Part shown: positions 2,407 to 23,827 of the stretch, piece after piece
How the letters are laid out: each line of letters begins with the position of its first letter
Position numbering within the stretch: position 1 is the first letter of the stretch
Made by a program: the position numbers and the translations under genes
NCBI GenBank assembly: GCA_026709335.1
Contig: JAPOTE010000019.1
Coordinates: 1-41,484 of the forward strand
Source: Bacteroidota bacterium
GTDB lineage: Bacteria; Bacteroidota; Rhodothermia; Rhodothermales; Bin80
Length of the DNA stretch: 41,484 nt
Reading direction: 5' to 3'
Notes under the pieces: model-generated
Databases searched by the model: none
Told to the model about the DNA's origin: nothing
The model's input: the letters and a program-made list of their open reading frames with translations, nothing else

Positions 2407-3240
2407 ATGCCGAAATCTCCCCGTGTTTTCACAGTCCTTGATTGGCTTGGGTTGGTTTTGCTTTGGCTATTCACCATTGCTGTTCTTGCCGGATTCGGTT
2501 CATTTGGTCTACACCCGGAACTCTTGGCACAAGCACCTTCGGCTGCAGATTTCTATGGAATAGCCTTCATCCTTTTCTCCCGAGGGCATGTAATCATAGC
2601 TTTCCTGGTGCTTGCATTACTGCTGATTCCACGTATTCGACTAAGTTGGCTTCCCGCTCTGATTCTGGCAGGCTTCATTTCTCTTGGAATGGAATTAATG
2701 GGCACGAAAACAGGATTTCCGTTCAGTGGCTATGAATATACGGGCTTGTTGGGGTATCGTATTGCTGGCCTGGTCCCGGTCCTTATTCCGATCAGCTGGT
2801 TTATGGTGGCATTCCCTTCCTATGTACTGGCACGGCGAATGACCTCATCCAGGTACATGCACTGGATTTTGGGTGCACTCATTCTGACTGCCTGGGATTT
2901 AACCCTTGATCCTGCCATGAGTGACCTTACCAAATACTGGATATGGGAAAATGCAGGCCCATACTATGGAATGCCTCTGGTCAATCTGGCCGGATGGTTT
3001 GGAACCGGTATCTTGATCATGGTTGCATTCCACTTCAGTGGTACAGGTAAGATAGCAGATCGCATTCCTCCAATCCTCATGGAGGCATATTATATCACGG
3101 TGGTTGTACTCTCATTAGGAATGACACTTTTGGCTGGCTACTGGTTGGCAACCTTCCTTACTTTAGGAGTATTCGCAGCAATAAGAGTATTGATCTATCT
3201 TAACTCAGACACTTCCGAAGGATTGCCCGGATCTCCATGA
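2407..3240 (+). CDS. cruF: carotenoid biosynthesis membrane protein, CruF / bisanhydrobacterioruberin hydratase-like
   Basis: A 277-residue hydrophobic protein with about seven to eight membrane segments. It matches the DUF422/CruF family, which adds water across the terminal 1',2' double bond of acyclic carotenoid ends. Family blocks visible are MELMGTKTGFPFSGYEYT, 'VPVLIPISWFMVAFPSYV' and AWDLTLDPAMS. The start is set at the ATG at 2407 because the family-like sequence begins there; an in-frame upstream start at 2272 would add 45 unlikely residues. The stop overlaps the start of the next gene by 4 bases (ATGA), indicating translational coupling with the fused prenyl/phytoene synthase. The pathway context supports a C40 xanthophyll hydroxylation step. 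No lycopene cyclase is seen nearby. Confidence 0.85.
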   Translation: MPKSPRVFTVLDWLGLVLLWLFTIAVLAGFGSFGLHPELLAQAPSAADFYGIAFILFSRGHVIIAFLVLALLLIPRIRLSWLPALILAGFISLGMELMGTKTGFPFSGYEYTGLLGYRIAGLVPVLIPISWFMVAFPSYVLARRMTSSRYMHWILGALILTAWDLTLDPAMSDLTKYWIWENAGPYYGMPLVNLAGWFGTGILIMVAFHFSGTGKIADRIPPILMEAYYITVVVLSLGMTLLAGYWLATFLTLGVFAAIRVLIYLNSDTSEGLPGSP

Positions 3241-16612: not shown

Positions 16613-17788
16613 TTAACGCTTTGATGATGCCCAGAGAGAACGAATTTGTTCTGCCGTCTTTTTATGGTGAGCTGCCTTACAGATCATTTGGCAATTATCA
16701 GCGTCTGTCTTTCCTCCCTCTGACCAAGGCTTGATATGATCTGCTTCCATCTCTTCAATGGATAGTTCTTTGTTCGTAATAGCACAGACACCCTCTTGCC
16801 TGTCATATGCAGATTGTCGTTCCTCGGCCGTAAATGCACGACGGTTCAAATACTTTTCATCACCTGATAACACAAACGGATAAATGCCCGCTTGGTTAAC
16901 TTCTTTGGGATCACACTTGAATAGATTCGTGACTTTCTCTGCTACTTCTATGGGATCAAAATCTTTATCCTTGAACTCACAGTATAGGCTCCCCCAGTCC
17001 ACAGATTTCATTTTGGTCCGGTAATTCTTAGCGTTCTTAGATACATTGAATGTATCCTCAATCCATTCATAAATACCTTTGAAGTAATCCCATAAATGCT
17101 TCGCGGATCGTTCGTGTCGGTGTTTTGCCATGTACTGACGAATCGTAGAGTCCTGGTTGGAGCCGGTTCTCCAGATCAAGATACGCTCAAGATGATCTTG
17201 ACGCTCCCGTTTGCCACTCATATATCTCCCGCACATCACTGTTTGACCACCTTTCTTTGTGAAATAACGCTTTGCATCTGTGACCCAAGGGCCATTATAG
17301 ATTGAATTTCTTAATTCTTGGTTAGACAATTCTTTTGCGCCTGTATTGATGGTTTGAAACCAACGCATTAATTCATTTGCATTCCCTTCACAGACATGTA
17401 CATGGAGTTGATAATCTAAAATGCGTTCACGATCTTCCTTATCCAATCCATGCCAGTATTGAGTTTGGCCATCACCAATAGACACAGAGAACTCGCGGTT
17501 AACAATGAATTTGCAAATTGTAATAATTCGCTGCTGTCCATCCAATAACTCGTAGTCATATTCACTGTTCTCGGCCTTCGCGAAGTAAATCAAGTTTACA
17601 GGACGGTCATGGTAAATGGACTGCATCAGTGCTTCTTGAAAATCTTTTTTCCCATCATAGATATATTCTCTCTGGTAGGGCGGTCGGATGTTCAGCATCC
17701 CTCCAAGTCCAGTGACCTGTCCAGATTCATCATTATCATATCCGTCAATGATGTCCCGAATTGTGATTTTGTGCTCGTGGATTTTCAT
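16613..17788 (-). CDS. DUF262 (ParB-like) and HNH endonuclease fusion, probable restriction component
   Basis: A 391-residue two-part protein. The N-terminal DUF262 domain shows PPYQREYIY (36-44) and the LLDGQQRIITI nucleotide-binding motif (DGQQR 83-87). Then comes a helical middle with FQTINTGAKELSNQELRN. The C-terminal part is an HNH nuclease: a zinc-type Cys at 335, then EADHIKPWSEGG (348-359), a DNCQMIC segment and AHHKK. DUF262-HNH proteins occur in GmrSD-type and other restriction systems. Here the gene starts 2 bases after the stop of an EcoRI-type adenine methyltransferase, which suggests the cutting partner of a modification enzyme. That pairing is inferred from position. The G-tract in the upstream gene may also affect its translation. 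Confidence 0.85.
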   Translation of the reverse strand: MKIHEHKITIRDIIDGYDNDESGQVTGLGGMLNIRPPYQREYIYDGKKDFQEALMQSIYHDRPVNLIYFAKAENSEYDYELLDGQQRIITICKFIVNREFSVSIGDGQTQYWHGLDKEDRERILDYQLHVHVCEGNANELMRWFQTINTGAKELSNQELRNSIYNGPWVTDAKRYFTKKGGQTVMCGRYMSGKRERQDHLERILIWRTGSNQDSTIRQYMAKHRHERSAKHLWDYFKGIYEWIEDTFNVSKNAKNYRTKMKSVDWGSLYCEFKDKDFDPIEVAEKVTNLFKCDPKEVNQAGIYPFVLSGDEKYLNRRAFTAEERQSAYDRQEGVCAITNKELSIEEMEADHIKPWSEGGKTDADNCQMICKAAHHKKTAEQIRSLWASSKR

Positions 17789-17790
17789 GT

Positions 17791-18753
17791 CTAGATCTGG
17801 CGGTTGCGAATAATAATTCGGTTGTAAATTTTTCGCCCTTCAATAATGGTTAAACACTCATATCCAATCCACCGAGCGCTATTTGCTATCCCCAGTATCT
17901 CAAACTGCTCCGGGTTGTACTTGTCCAAAAAACTGATAGGAACACCCATTGCCCCCCCCCAATTTTTGGGAATATCCTTCGTCTTACTTACTTCGATTGC
18001 ATCGTAATTATCGTAGTGCGGGTATTCCTCAGGAGAATATTTTCTGTAAAGAATTAACTCCTCATTACGTTTCTTGTGAGGCAGATTCGTGAACCAGTGA
18101 ACCCCCGACACCCGAATCATTCCTTCTTTTCTATCCGTAGCTGTAGCGGTATCTTCATATCGGCTAATAAAGTGGCCAGCTCCGCCTTTGAAACCCATGC
18201 CAAGCCATATTTTATTTTCCTTGATCAGCGGAAATATCTCCTTGTAGGTGATAGAATTCTGGTGCCCAATAATCAAAAACTTTTTGTCGTATTTCATGAG
18301 CTGAGCGACGTATTCACGAAACTTCGAGAACGGTGGATTGGTCACCACAATATCCGACTGCTTTAACAGTTCAATACACTCGGCACTCCGGAAATCGCCA
18401 TCACCTTCTAAAGGCTTTACATCAATCTTGTGTGGATCAGGACGAGAGTTCCCGTCTTGATCTCCATGATACTCAAGATATACTGCTTTCTCCGAATCAT
18501 GCTTTGAAAATAGATCTGGTTGCTGATTTTGATAGCAGGTTGTAATCAATTTCTTCAGTCCATAGAACTCAAACTGTTTGGAGAAGAATTTAAAAAAGTT
18601 GCTCACTCGTGGATCATCACAATTACAGTAGACTACCTTATCCTTGAAATACAAGCGATAATGCTTTAATTCGTTCTCTATGTCGCTTAGTTGCGTATAG
18701 AACTCGTCTTTTTTTGCGTTCCGTGCAGAGTGCAGATTTAAATTCTTAGCCAT
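17791..18753 (-). CDS. EcoRI-type adenine-specific DNA methyltransferase
   Basis: A 320-residue protein resembling the EcoRI methylase family. Seen are KKDEFYTQLSDIENELKHY (14-32), VYCNCDDPRVSNFFKFF (41-57) and the catalytic IV motif VTNPPFSKFREYV with NPPF at 139-142. NPPF is the adenine-N6 methylation motif. Late in the protein comes MGVPISFLDKYNPEQFEI and a tail ending IYNRIIIRNRQI. The product methylates adenine in a specific DNA site, presumably protecting host DNA from the adjacent DUF262-HNH protein. A run of nine G on the coding strand (17952-17960) encodes the W-G-G of NWGGAMG at residues 265-267. The present length keeps the frame open. Confidence 0.9.
   Translation of the reverse strand: MAKNLNLHSARNAKKDEFYTQLSDIENELKHYRLYFKDKVVYCNCDDPRVSNFFKFFSKQFEFYGLKKLITTCYQNQQPDLFSKHDSEKAVYLEYHGDQDGNSRPDPHKIDVKPLEGDGDFRSAECIELLKQSDIVVTNPPFSKFREYVAQLMKYDKKFLIIGHQNSITYKEIFPLIKENKIWLGMGFKGGAGHFISRYEDTATATDRKEGMIRVSGVHWFTNLPHKKRNEELILYRKYSPEEYPHYDNYDAIEVSKTKDIPKNWGGAMGVPISFLDKYNPEQFEILGIANSARWIGYECLTIIEGRKIYNRIIIRNRQI
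17952..17960 (-). repeat. G9 homopolymer inside the methyltransferase gene
   Basis: Nine consecutive C on the plus strand (G on the coding strand) fall inside the methyltransferase frame at residues 265-267. Long G tracts in methyltransferase genes are the usual substrate of slipped-strand phase variation. A one-base change would remove the last ~55 residues, including the MGVP block. I noticed no comparable G/C run in other genes of the window. Confidence 0.85.
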
Positions 18754-19161: not shown

Positions 19162-19473
19162 ATGACAACCACATCTAATCGTAAAGTTGCGTCTCATGAT
19201 GAGGCAGAAAAGCAGATTAAACAAAATGATGATGTATATCTCGAAAGGAAGAGAGAATTTGAAAACTTATACCATGGTAAAATTTTGTTAATGCATAACG
19301 GCAAAATTGAAGGTGCATTTAATGATGACGAAGACGCTTATTTGATAGGTTGTGATAAATTTGAACTTGGCAATTTTTCTTTGCATCGTGTAGGAAAGAA
19401 GCCTGTTGAATTAGGATATATTTCATACGGGATAAGAGCCGAAAAAATAGCGGATGCCACCATTCCTCGCTGA
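19162..19473 (+). CDS. small protein paired with a retropepsin (DUF5678-like, uncertain)
   Basis: A 103-residue, charged, soluble protein without a signal peptide. The N-terminal half is probably helical (SHDEAEKQIKQNDDVYLERK). The second half has a beta-type HGKILLMHNGKIEGAF followed by an acidic NDDEDAYLIG segment. The pattern of an aromatic/Gly-Lys strand followed by 'NGKI' is like the small DUF5678-type proteins that often precede bacterial retropepsin-like proteases. I cannot confirm the family by eye. Its last 20 bases overlap the start of the protease gene, so the two are translated together. It is AT-richer than the surrounding conserved genes. Confidence 0.65.
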   Translation: MTTTSNRKVASHDEAEKQIKQNDDVYLERKREFENLYHGKILLMHNGKIEGAFNDDEDAYLIGCDKFELGNFSLHRVGKKPVELGYISYGIRAEKIADATIPR

Positions 19474-19858
19474 GATTGAAAACAATCAGGCTATAATTAA
19501 AGCAGCTGTTGGGCGTCCAGGGTCTCTGAACAATATGCAGGGATATGATGCTTTGTTAGACACTGGCGCTCAGAGTACATTAGTGTCTCAGAAAGTTGTT
19601 GATGAATTGGGATTTATTCCTATTGGATCCGATTCTATTCGCACCGTAGAGGGTAACATAGTAACGACCAAGAAATATCACATAAATGTGGGAATTCTTG
19701 TGCAATTTGGGAGTAATGATATAGTTGGTACGGGTTTTACTATAAACGTGGCATCATTACCCTTTCAACCTGCTAATTTTGATGTATTATTGGGTATGGA
19801 TTTGATCTCAAGATTCCATATGACATTTTGGGGAAATAGAATAATCATCAGTAATTAA
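19454..19858 (+). CDS. retropepsin-like aspartic protease
   Basis: A 134-residue protein the size of a single retroviral-type protease subunit. The catalytic loop is ALLDTGAQSTLVS with Asp36-Thr37-Gly38-Ala39. The second family mark, a hydrophobic-hydrophobic-Gly element, is FDVLLGMDLI near residues 108-117. Retropepsins work as homodimers, each chain giving one Asp. No signal peptide or membrane segment is visible, so it should be cytoplasmic. The target is unknown; the overlapping partner gene upstream is a candidate substrate or regulator (inference). It lies in the AT-rich accessory stretch. Confidence 0.85.
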   Translation: MPPFLAEIENNQAIIKAAVGRPGSLNNMQGYDALLDTGAQSTLVSQKVVDELGFIPIGSDSIRTVEGNIVTTKKYHINVGILVQFGSNDIVGTGFTINVASLPFQPANFDVLLGMDLISRFHMTFWGNRIIISN

Positions 19859-20475: not shown

Positions 20476-22362
20476 CTACGGTCTCACTACATCCATTCTG
20501 GCAATCCACAATCCACTATTCAAATCTGATGTGTAGATATGCCCTTTAAAAATCTGAGCTCCCCAGGTCATCGGCCAACCGGGCACCATGGACTGTTCAT
20601 CTGCTGTGAGAACATGTGCAATTTCTCGCCCCTGATTGTACAAATTACCTCTCAATTCGCCACTGATATCAATCACGCGTAAACCCGCCTGATAATATCC
20701 AACATATAGGCGGTCATCTTCTACCCATACATTGTGTGCGCCTGCACCCGGTATCTCGTATCTGGCAACCTCTACGGGAGCTTCAAGATCTGATACATCC
20801 AGAATATGGATATACCCTCTGGCATCAATTGGCTTACTGGGATCCCAGTCCTCAGGAAAAATCTCATCTCCGACAAACAGGTACTGCCCATGCCGCCATG
20901 CAACATGCGTGTTTCCCTCTGGATAGGAAAGTCTGCTGACCATCACGGGGGCTGTTGGAGTGCCCCCATGAGTACCTGCTCCCACGTCCAGCGTTACCAC
21001 TCCATCATCCCAGTATGAAAGGTAGGCATACCCTTCCTGAACGATGACATCATGTAGCGTTTTCTCTTCCTTATCAAGCTCCCACCGCCCCACTTCTTTC
21101 GGACGAACAGGATCCGAAATATCTATAATATGGAGCGCACTTGTCCCATTGTGACACGCATATACAAGATCCTCCTCAATCCAGACATTATGGACACCTC
21201 CGGTAACCGTTTCTGTGTACTCTGAGAGGATTGTAGGATGTGCCGGATTCGAAAGATCCAGAATAACGATTCCATTTCGCCGACTAGAGGCACCTTCACG
21301 CGTAATCACGGCAAGTTGGTTACTCCCGTGAATCTTGACATCATTGATCCGTCGGGCATCCACCTGTATTGAATCCGTCAAAACAGGCTCTTCTGGATTG
21401 GTTACATCAAAAACTTTCATCCAATCATGTATGAAAGTGCCGATATATACATAATCTCGACCATCCACGCCTTCAAAAGCCCACATATCTCCAGAGTGAT
21501 GATGTGCAATGGCACCACGGCCAGCAATCATCAACGTTTCTTTATGAACTCGAGGCTCGACAGCGATGATGATGGTTCGCTGGATATCTTCACCAATATG
21601 AGCGGTAATGGAATAATCGAGTGCCTCTTCTGGTACAAAAATTCCCTCCGCTCCCTCACTGCCCATATAAAGTCCACCACCAGAGGCTTCCCATGTGGGA
21701 TAAACCCCCTCAACGGCGTCTCCATTCTCATCAACCGCATTCACTCGAAAACGTACCACATCTCCCTGTCGCACAATATATCGGTTTTGTGCGATTTGAT
21801 AGGATACGGCCGGATTCTCTATCACGGTCACATCCACGGTCGTGGAAACATCCGCAACTCGAACGGTTACATTTGCAGTGCCAGGTTTGTGTGCATGCAC
21901 TCGTCCATCCCGATTTACTGTTACTACTGCAACATTGCTACTCCTGAACCGAATACGCTCCTCCGTTGGCAACCCGTTAAGGAGTACATTTATGGACATA
22001 CTTGTTCCCGAGAGAAGCGAAGAACTCGGTAATGTGGCAATCAAATGGGTCTGGTTACTCTCCTCTACGATGATCTCGGCGTATCCTGGTTTACCTCCCA
22101 AAACCGCAACAATGACTGCACGACCCGGTGCAAGTGCCTGCACTTTGCCATTCTCATCAACAGTTGCGATAGTAGACTCTGCAATATGCCAACGAGCCTC
22201 CAGTCCTGAAATAGCCGCACCAGACGCATCGTATGCCTCTGCCAGAAACTCTCTGGTTTCATTTACTTCCAGAGTAATAGATTCCGGCATGATTTTAACA
22301 TGCTCCGGTGGCTCGGCTTGAGGATTTACCTGTAAAAACAGTCCAACGAGTAGTAACAACAT
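20476..22362 (-). CDS. secreted protein with BIG2 domains and LVIVD propeller repeats
   Basis: With the start at the ATG at 22362 the product has 628 residues and begins with a short signal, MLLLLVGLFLQVNPQA. An upstream in-frame ATG (22458) would overlap the divergent MATE gene, so it is less likely. Two or three bacterial Ig-like (BIG2) domains come first: a 'ITLEVNETREFLAEAYDASG' type opening, then STIATVDENGKVQALAPGRA and VVTVNRDGRVHAHKPGTANV. A C-terminal beta-propeller follows, made of LVIVD repeats such as MKVFDVTNPEEPVL, IVILDLSNPAHPTI, LHIIDISDPVRPKE and IHILDVSDLEAPVE. There are no catalytic residues that I recognise. Exported, probably a surface binding or adhesion protein (inference). 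Confidence 0.83.
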   Translation of the reverse strand: MLLLLVGLFLQVNPQAEPPEHVKIMPESITLEVNETREFLAEAYDASGAAISGLEARWHIAESTIATVDENGKVQALAPGRAVIVAVLGGKPGYAEIIVEESNQTHLIATLPSSSLLSGTSMSINVLLNGLPTEERIRFRSSNVAVVTVNRDGRVHAHKPGTANVTVRVADVSTTVDVTVIENPAVSYQIAQNRYIVRQGDVVRFRVNAVDENGDAVEGVYPTWEASGGGLYMGSEGAEGIFVPEEALDYSITAHIGEDIQRTIIIAVEPRVHKETLMIAGRGAIAHHHSGDMWAFEGVDGRDYVYIGTFIHDWMKVFDVTNPEEPVLTDSIQVDARRINDVKIHGSNQLAVITREGASSRRNGIVILDLSNPAHPTILSEYTETVTGGVHNVWIEEDLVYACHNGTSALHIIDISDPVRPKEVGRWELDKEEKTLHDVIVQEGYAYLSYWDDGVVTLDVGAGTHGGTPTAPVMVSRLSYPEGNTHVAWRHGQYLFVGDEIFPEDWDPSKPIDARGYIHILDVSDLEAPVEVARYEIPGAGAHNVWVEDDRLYVGYYQAGLRVIDISGELRGNLYNQGREIAHVLTADEQSMVPGWPMTWGAQIFKGHIYTSDLNSGLWIARMDVVRP

Positions 22363-22426
22363 GGATAAGTAGTCAGTTTCAGCCCCAATATACTTATCCT
22401 GTGGGTTGCTTGATCCCCCCGTCCAT

Positions 22427-23827
22427 ATGAAAACGATTGTCACCGCTAATAGACACATCCATATCCTCAGGAATGAGGCCCACGAGGTTACACTCCTTTC
22501 ACTCCCAATCGTTATGACTCAATTGGGGCAGATTAGTAATGGGTTTATTGATGTGATCATGGTCGGACGCTTGGGCTCACCTGAACTTGCAGGGGCAGCC
22601 CTCGGAAATGCCACCTACTTTCTTTTTGCCCTGATTGGAATTGGCATCCTCCTAGCGGTAGGCCCCATGGTTTCACAGGCATATGGTGCAGGAAAGCATG
22701 ATCCCATTGGCCGTACAGTGCGACAGGCGCTCTGGCTAGCTACCCTTCTGTCGTTGCCTGTATTGCTGATTATGTGGAATGCAAAATTACCATGGGGGCT
22801 GATGCAACAGGATGCCGCTACAATTGAATATGCTGAAGGATACCTACAGGCTTCAATGTGGGGATTTCTCCCCTTCATGTGGTTCAACGCTCTGCGCAAT
22901 TTTGTCGAGGCAATTGCGCGTCCGATCCCTGTTACAATCATCATCGTAATGGGAATTCTATTAAATATCGCTGCTAATTATGGCTTGATGTTTGGTAATT
23001 TCGGCCTTCCACGACTTGGCCTCACTGGGACCGGATGGGCTACCTGTATCGTCCACTGGTTCATGTTCACCTGTATTGCACTTTATGTTGCCACAAAAAA
23101 ACCTTATCGATCTTTCGGGGTTTTGAGAAAACTCCGAACCCCGGATTTTGGATATTTTCGCGAACTCCTGCAGGTTGGACTTCCAATTGGGGGATCTATC
23201 GGCCTTGAGGTCACTCTCTTTAGCGCAACAGCCTTTCTAGTTGGCACCTTTGGCGCAGTCCCCATCGCCGCGCATCAGATTGCAATTCAGTGTGCTGCAA
23301 TTACATACATGGTCCCTCTTGGCATTGGGCTGGCAACTTCCGTCCGAGTCGGCCAAAATATTGGAGCCAAAAATCCTGCTGCCGCTGCAATTTCAGGATA
23401 TACGGGGCTCGGATTATCCTTCATATTTATGTCCTGTACTGCATTACTGTTTCTGATTGCCCCGAATTTTGTTGCGGGTATTTATTTGGACATAAATGAT
23501 CCGGCGAACCTTACAACCACTCTACAAGTGGTGAGTTTATTGGGCATTGCAGCAATTTTTCAACTGTTCGACGGAGTACAAGCGACGGCACTGGGAGCAT
23601 TAAGAGGGCTTAAGGATACACGCATTCCCATGTTACTTGGCTTTATTGCATATTGGCTCATTGGAATGCCTACGGGTCTTGGTCTTGGATTCGGTCTGGA
23701 TATGGGACCGGAAGGATTCTGGTGGGGGCTTGTCGTCGGTTTGTTTGCGGCATCCATCATGTTCACCTATCGTTTTTTTCGTATGACCAATCAATTAAGA
23801 ATTAGCCATTCTCCACCTTTGACCTGA
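22427..23827 (+). CDS. MATE family multidrug/cation efflux transporter
   Basis: A 466-residue protein with the 12-segment MATE layout. Typical blocks are LSLPIVMTQLGQISNGFIDV followed by IMVGRLGSPELAGAALGNA in the N-terminal half. The C-terminal half repeats the pattern in VGTFGAVPIAAHQIAIQCA and then PLGIGLATSVRVGQNIGA. These proteins export drugs or metabolites in exchange for Na+ or H+. The ATG at 22427 is preferred because an upstream TTG at 22406 adds seven residues and runs into the promoter space shared with the divergent LVIVD gene. The start-to-start gap of about 64 bases implies overlapping divergent promoters. Confidence 0.9.
   Translation: MKTIVTANRHIHILRNEAHEVTLLSLPIVMTQLGQISNGFIDVIMVGRLGSPELAGAALGNATYFLFALIGIGILLAVGPMVSQAYGAGKHDPIGRTVRQALWLATLLSLPVLLIMWNAKLPWGLMQQDAATIEYAEGYLQASMWGFLPFMWFNALRNFVEAIARPIPVTIIIVMGILLNIAANYGLMFGNFGLPRLGLTGTGWATCIVHWFMFTCIALYVATKKPYRSFGVLRKLRTPDFGYFRELLQVGLPIGGSIGLEVTLFSATAFLVGTFGAVPIAAHQIAIQCAAITYMVPLGIGLATSVRVGQNIGAKNPAAAAISGYTGLGLSFIFMSCTALLFLIAPNFVAGIYLDINDPANLTTTLQVVSLLGIAAIFQLFDGVQATALGALRGLKDTRIPMLLGFIAYWLIGMPTGLGLGFGLDMGPEGFWWGLVVGLFAASIMFTYRFFRMTNQLRISHSPPLT

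Follow-up and report, generated by a model that had tools for sequence, protein, structure and literature searches.

A poly-G tract as a probable phase-variation switch in an EcoRI-type methyltransferase that may direct a DUF262-HNH nuclease

The run of nine G in the EcoRI-type DNA methyltransferase gene (hereafter M) of the window, i.e., the whole 41,484-nt stretch of DNA analyzed here, is probably a slipped-strand contingency switch in a two-gene restriction-modification module, in which M would direct the partner nuclease (hereafter R). The phase variability of the tract is well supported by comparative evidence across homologous loci, as the same codons carry G runs of different lengths in both coding frames. 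More tentatively, the pairing of an EcoRI_methylase protein with a DUF262-HNH nuclease might represent a restriction system of its own kind: an M with two exchangeable recognition modules would direct a specificity-neutral nuclease, and in some bacteria a combinatorial phase-variable array of such M genes, each with a poly-G switch, would share one nuclease.

M is encoded on the reverse strand (17,791–18,753) as a protein of 320 aa. It matches the Pfam family EcoRI_methylase (PF13651) across residues 6–292, with an E-value of 5.8e-130 and a score of 434 bits against a cut-off of 26.4, and the PADLOC MTase_II profile over nearly its full length (E 2.6e-115). This profile score, the full length of the protein, and an NPPF motif (residues 139–142; 18,328–18,339, reverse strand) that is invariant in 62 aligned homologs identify M as an EcoRI-type N6-adenine DNA methyltransferase. 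We take NPPF to be the catalytic motif IV, with the role it has in N6-adenine methyltransferases. In the AlphaFold2 model (pLDDT 83.5, pTM 0.84), residues ~12–225 adopt a Rossmann adenine-methyltransferase fold, followed by a C-terminal domain. A PDB sequence search with M gave no match at E-values up to 1, Foldseek with the model gave none up to 0.001, and no NCBIfam family was assigned to M; residues 12–225 were placed on KsgA/Dim1-type adenine methyltransferases by the second-look structure aligner only, with the C-terminal domain barely covered. The conserved block MGVPISFLDKYNPEQFEI (residues 269–286; 17,896–17,949, reverse strand), directly behind the G tract, ranks among the most conserved stretches of M, with G270, V271, P272, K278, P281, Q283, and F284 invariant in the 62 aligned homologs.

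R (391 aa; 16,613–17,788, reverse strand) starts at position 17,788, 2 nt behind the M stop according to the ORF coordinates (gap at 17,789–17,790, reverse strand), in agreement with the two-base gap in the original prediction. It contains a GmrSD_N (DUF262) domain at residues 34–164 (PF03235, E 3.6e-17) and an HNH domain at residues 340–379 (PF01844, E 3.6e-10), with invariant DGQQR at 83–87 and invariant D350, H351, and N365. A DUF262 domain with DGQQR joined to an HNH-type nuclease domain, both with profile scores over cut-off, is the composition of a GmrSD-type nuclease. The fold comparison gave modest similarities to BrxU (Z 7.5 over 115 residues) and SspE (Z 6.6), as well as matches to HNH domains. 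The PADLOC REase_II profile covers nearly the full length of R (E 6.8e-89), so that methyltransferase and endonuclease genes (MTase_II and REase_II) stand together as in Type II restriction-modification systems. M and R co-occur in 116 of 146 loci (some of which were fetched twice), mostly side by side.

The tract lies at positions 17,952–17,960, where nine C on the forward strand, read directly from the window, correspond to G9 on the coding (reverse) strand, and it runs through the codons tTGG GGG GGG GCA (W265-G266-G267-A268) of the open 320-aa frame with the PF13651 match, exactly where the original prediction had located it. That prediction also described the run as having no equal in the window, which is true for G and C, the next longest run being 6, while the longest A and T runs have 8. 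Under Markov models of the window, 0.12–0.25 G/C runs of at least 9 are expected per window, and the chance of such a run at the tract site is 3.3%, given the protein and the local codon use. By pattern counts, which underlie all our genome-wide poly-G statistics, the source genome (G000) contains ~11 runs of this kind in 2.8 Mb, some of them in housekeeping-type genes. Because composition predicts this many runs in the window and the genome has others, housekeeping-type genes included, the G9 run alone is weak evidence and proves nothing by itself; the case for a switch is made by the homologs. In-frame G9 runs were also observed in genes for a fabG-like reductase (G000:C122, L215) and an amino-acid permease (G000:C52, L184).

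Homologs of M were collected from genome contigs, viral contigs, and genomes of the order, and most of them encode D-Y/W-x-G-x-MGVP at the tract site with mixed Gly codons and no run. An uninterrupted run of G7 to G10 occupies the same codons in 12 distinct M copies, eight in frame and four out of frame. These are the M genes of the window (G9, in frame) and G001 (G9, in frame), three of G002 (G9; G8 in frame via a compensating codon; G8 out of frame), one of G006 (G10, out of frame), two of G029 (G9; G10 out of frame), and four on Rhodobacteraceae bin131 contigs (two with G9; G7 out of frame; G10 with a second change that keeps it in frame). The carriers belong to the same genus, to another family of the order, and to a metagenome-assembled genome (MAG) filed as Rhodobacteraceae. 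In all four out-of-frame tract copies, the tract is the sole lesion and the gene is open on both sides. Copies without the tract were out of frame in 1 of 111 cases, compared with 4 of 12 tract copies (Fisher p = 2.6e-4, a guide and no exact probability, since the M copies are related). Among 79 M ORFs with a neighboring R (81 kb in total), G runs of at least 8 are found at the tract site only.

In a tree computed from the M sequence ahead of the tract, the tract copies are scattered and form no single clade; the presence of the tract requires at least eight changes, three of which are forced by well-supported branches. A single inherited origin of the tract is rejected because of this scatter, and the number of origins is uncertain because the M gene recombines. 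A pattern search of 394 genomes across the phylum gave matches confined to the same order, and the only viral-contig match (L221) yielded no entry among the tabulated M copies. Overall, the tract is a repeat whose changes in length shift the reading frame, and related loci differ both in its length and in their frame state, as in slipped-strand phase-variable genes. The original prediction had named an invariant tract length in deep reads and in related genomes as the result that would speak against switching; in related genomes, lengths from G7 to G10 and both frames were found.

Out of frame, M in the window would end at 288 aa (8 G) or 284 aa (10 G), without the seven invariant residues from G270 to F284 listed above and without the second of two variable modules (V2), and the truncation destroys the C-terminal domain of the AlphaFold2 model. 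Truncated M is therefore predicted to be inactive, as the invariant GVP...KYNPEQF block and V2 are lost. The stop of M would at the same time move from 2 nt before R to 97 nt (8 G) or 111 nt (10 G) before it. In the tract loci with R directly behind M, in-frame M genes stop −4 to +13 nt from the R start and out-of-frame ones 59–204 nt upstream of it, so that translational coupling from M to R is possible in all of them. The coupled switching of the nuclease suggested in the original prediction fits this stop/start geometry, but R taking its target from M seems to be at least as likely a route.

The latter route is suggested by the mosaic structure of M. In paralog pairs, sliding identity reveals blocks of up to 100% DNA identity broken by exchanged segments at ~nt 510–650 and ~nt 840–960. 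The corresponding modules are V1 (residues ~184–222; 18,088–18,204, reverse strand), which lies behind motif IV NPPF and is swapped between otherwise near-identical M genes, and V2 (residues ~287–312; 17,818–17,895, reverse strand), which lies behind the conserved MGVPITFLDKYNPEQFEI; the poly-G tract sits between the two. Identical V2 modules recur with differing V1 modules across phyla: RKGDDGKDLS in L083, L024, L064, and L092; TESEGxGF in L084 and the Neisseria loci L063 and L068; and ANSARW in the window, L082, L062, and L072. The identities of V1 and V2 are uncorrelated (rho 0.08). Judging from their position, variability, and swapping, V1 and V2 are probably target-recognition modules. 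A further EcoRI-type M, in G005:C135 (L230), has no R within the 8 kb fetched and is a candidate solitary methyltransferase; its first 800 nt are 93–100% identical to the R-linked copy of G005, and its V2 is different.

R does not follow these modules. Between L024 and L078, R is 99% identical while V1 is 30% and V2 19% identical, with the remainder of M nearly the same. The pair is a clean natural domain swap in which both variable modules are exchanged. Among L031, L037, and L047, R is 98–99% identical and V2 5–17%, and the R proteins of the window, L083, and L084, which are ~84–85% identical along the whole protein, accompany M proteins of three V1 classes and three V2 classes. When R proteins are grouped at 80% identity or more, most of the groups include M genes with different modules. 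If V1 and V2 set the target of M, near-identical R proteins beside M proteins with unrelated modules suggest that R has no fixed target of its own and takes its target from M, and these sequence comparisons speak against an independent specificity of R. R may still have some specificity of its own, given a modest correlation between R and V1 identity over all loci (rho 0.38) and a more variable stretch of R at ~205–300.

In addition, several M genes may share one R. The L011 array is arranged M-M-M-R, each M with its own tract and its own V2 (the three module sets being SGDREF/NPHFFT, in frame; SRDLLF/RKGTDGK, out of frame; and GFKGG/SASAGY, in frame), and the G002 array is arranged M-M-R-M, with a tract in each M, one V1 class, three V2 modules, and the third M out of frame. 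Since each M in such an array has its own poly-G tract, several specificities that switch independently could share a single R.

Taken together, a tract of 9 G (or 6 or 12) would yield full-length M, and 8 or 10 G truncated M, with slippage moving a strain between these states. Full-length M, with its two shuffled target modules, would direct R, either within a complex or through sensing by R of the mark that M leaves; both routes are reasonable because two relatives with DUF262, SspE and DndI, act together with modification systems and depend on or sense a DNA modification (PMC12707154, PMC11662687). In frame, ribosomes would reach the R start, and out of frame they would halt ~100 nt earlier and R might be made less, so that translational coupling might reinforce the dependence of R on M. 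Loss of M would then turn off modification and restriction together and the cell would survive, the off state being safe because R would take its specificity from M. This could also explain why, in G006 and G029:C28, an out-of-frame M with no neighboring M stands directly before an intact R, as R without M would have no target. The original prediction that the modification state may switch is supported comparatively by the same-site G7–G10 runs and the four out-of-frame copies among twelve, but it seems too narrow, because R appears to be M-directed and the whole restriction-modification function probably switches.

It is possible, though rather doubtful, that M and R form a conventional Type II pair, each with a specificity of its own, and that the tract switches M while translational coupling lowers R along with it. 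The spacing of M stops and R starts in all tract loci with R behind M is what such a pair would display, but near-identical R proteins beside M proteins with unrelated V1 and V2 are hard to reconcile with a fixed specificity of R, the coupling would have to be nearly complete to prevent self-cutting, and the out-of-frame third M of G002 sits behind R. It is improbable that the out-of-frame copies are simply assembly errors, or pseudogenes in decay that broke at a fragile position, and that the window copy is merely intact. One M copy (G005:C67) indeed has several lesions and no R, and the data are mostly draft MAGs; by contrast, none of the four out-of-frame tract copies has a second lesion, three of the four have an intact R next to them or belong to a live array, and two are on contigs named NODE_ and k141_, suggesting short-read assemblers. 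Some out-of-frame M copies may nevertheless be fixed losses or assembly errors.

The expected number of runs in the window, the 3.3% chance at the site, and the G9 runs in the fabG-like and permease genes of the same genome would all be compatible with a compositional run, in which Trp-Gly-Gly is needed, the Gly codons happen to be GGG, and no switching takes place. This seems very unlikely: 12 distinct homologs have an uninterrupted run over these very codons, they sit in several parts of the tree, and their runs have four different lengths and fall into both frames, while members lacking the tract use D-Y/W-x-G with mixed Gly codons. A run of 9–10 G is able in principle to slip during transcription, and programmed transcriptional or ribosomal slippage might thereby produce full-length and truncated M together in each cell from unchanged DNA. 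We consider this the hardest reading to credit, as tract lengths fall into more than one phase and the majority of copies read in frame, which is what a DNA switch predicts. A slipped-strand switch in an M that directs R therefore remains our preferred reading.

Among the closest known systems are the phase-variable Type III mod genes of Neisseria, Haemophilus, Moraxella, and Helicobacter (poly-G in modH) and their phasevarions, which share repeat slippage in a methyltransferase gene and a swappable recognition module. In Type III systems, the nuclease depends on Mod and the off state is safe, much as proposed here for an M-directed R. By contrast, M belongs to the EcoRI type (PF13651) and has two variable modules, R is a DUF262-HNH protein and not a helicase-type Res, and there may be several M genes per R. 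Type I systems with several or shuffled HsdS are similar in having one protein with two interchangeable recognition modules to guide a shared nuclease, and alternative specificity genes in one locus, but HsdM and HsdR are lacking here and the specificity carrier is the methyltransferase itself. Like GmrSD, BrxU, SspE, and DndI, R combines a DGQQR-bearing DUF262 domain with an HNH-type nuclease, yet it has HNH (PF01844) rather than DUF1524 and is paired with an adenine methyltransferase.

Phase-variable Type II examples were called limited in a 2026 review (PMC13076061). The parts of the sources consulted describe M.HpyAIV of H. pylori, with a poly-A tract (PMC12456177), and MhoVII of Mycoplasma hominis, with a TA repeat in the recognition domain (PMC10305163, PMC12898733); both are similarly stand-alone Type II methyltransferase genes with a frame-shifting repeat, but they belong to other methyltransferase families with other repeats, and neither poly-G nor arrays of mosaic copies are described in those parts. 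Homopolymers in the modification enzyme are also known from the phase-variable Type IIG systems of C. jejuni (PMC4889913) and H. pylori JHP1272, the latter with a second tract that changes specificity (PMC3936762). There, M and R are one polypeptide, whereas the window system has two genes. Among open-licence papers, we found no report joining an EcoRI-type methylase with DUF262, of poly-G in the EcoRI-type family, or of an M-directed pair of this kind.

Phase-variable methylation is known mainly from the Type I and Type III systems of pathogens, and the present probable case concerns a Type II system from environmental bacteria not yet cultured (one genome of the same genus is filed as Rhodothermales), in which alternative methyltransferases form arrays. 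If our reading is true, a common module filed as Type II in many phyla would really be M-directed, direction of R by M would explain why switching off the methyltransferase does the cell no harm, and the module would provide a nuclease whose specificity can be exchanged.

Poly-G contingency seems to be used more widely in this genus, and by pattern counts poly-G numbers differ strongly between its species. G000:C119 (L231) contains two N6_N4_Mtase genes of the DPPY type (Type III-like) with poly-G at one codon position just before DPPY (G9 at 505–513 and G12 at 2604–2615, reverse strand), both out of frame in the assembly, and their relatives in G002 and G004, 69–80% identical, have no run there. 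A further DPPY-type methyltransferase in G002:C7 (L232) is broken out of frame at G9. In G002, seven loci (L235, L238, L239, L241, L242, L245, and L250) have runs of 9–16 G at the 5′ ends of genes encoding repeat-rich proteins with signal peptides, which are possible phase-variable surface proteins. In the neighborhood of the M-R pair, a 103-aa ORF overlaps a retropepsin-like aspartyl protease gene (134 aa, with weak matches to PADLOC PDC-M08B) at 19,162–19,858 on the forward strand, divergent from the pair. At 20,476–22,458 on the reverse strand, a gene probably encodes a surface protein, whose product has Big_2 and LVIVD repeats and resembles choice-of-anchor B proteins (below cut-off).
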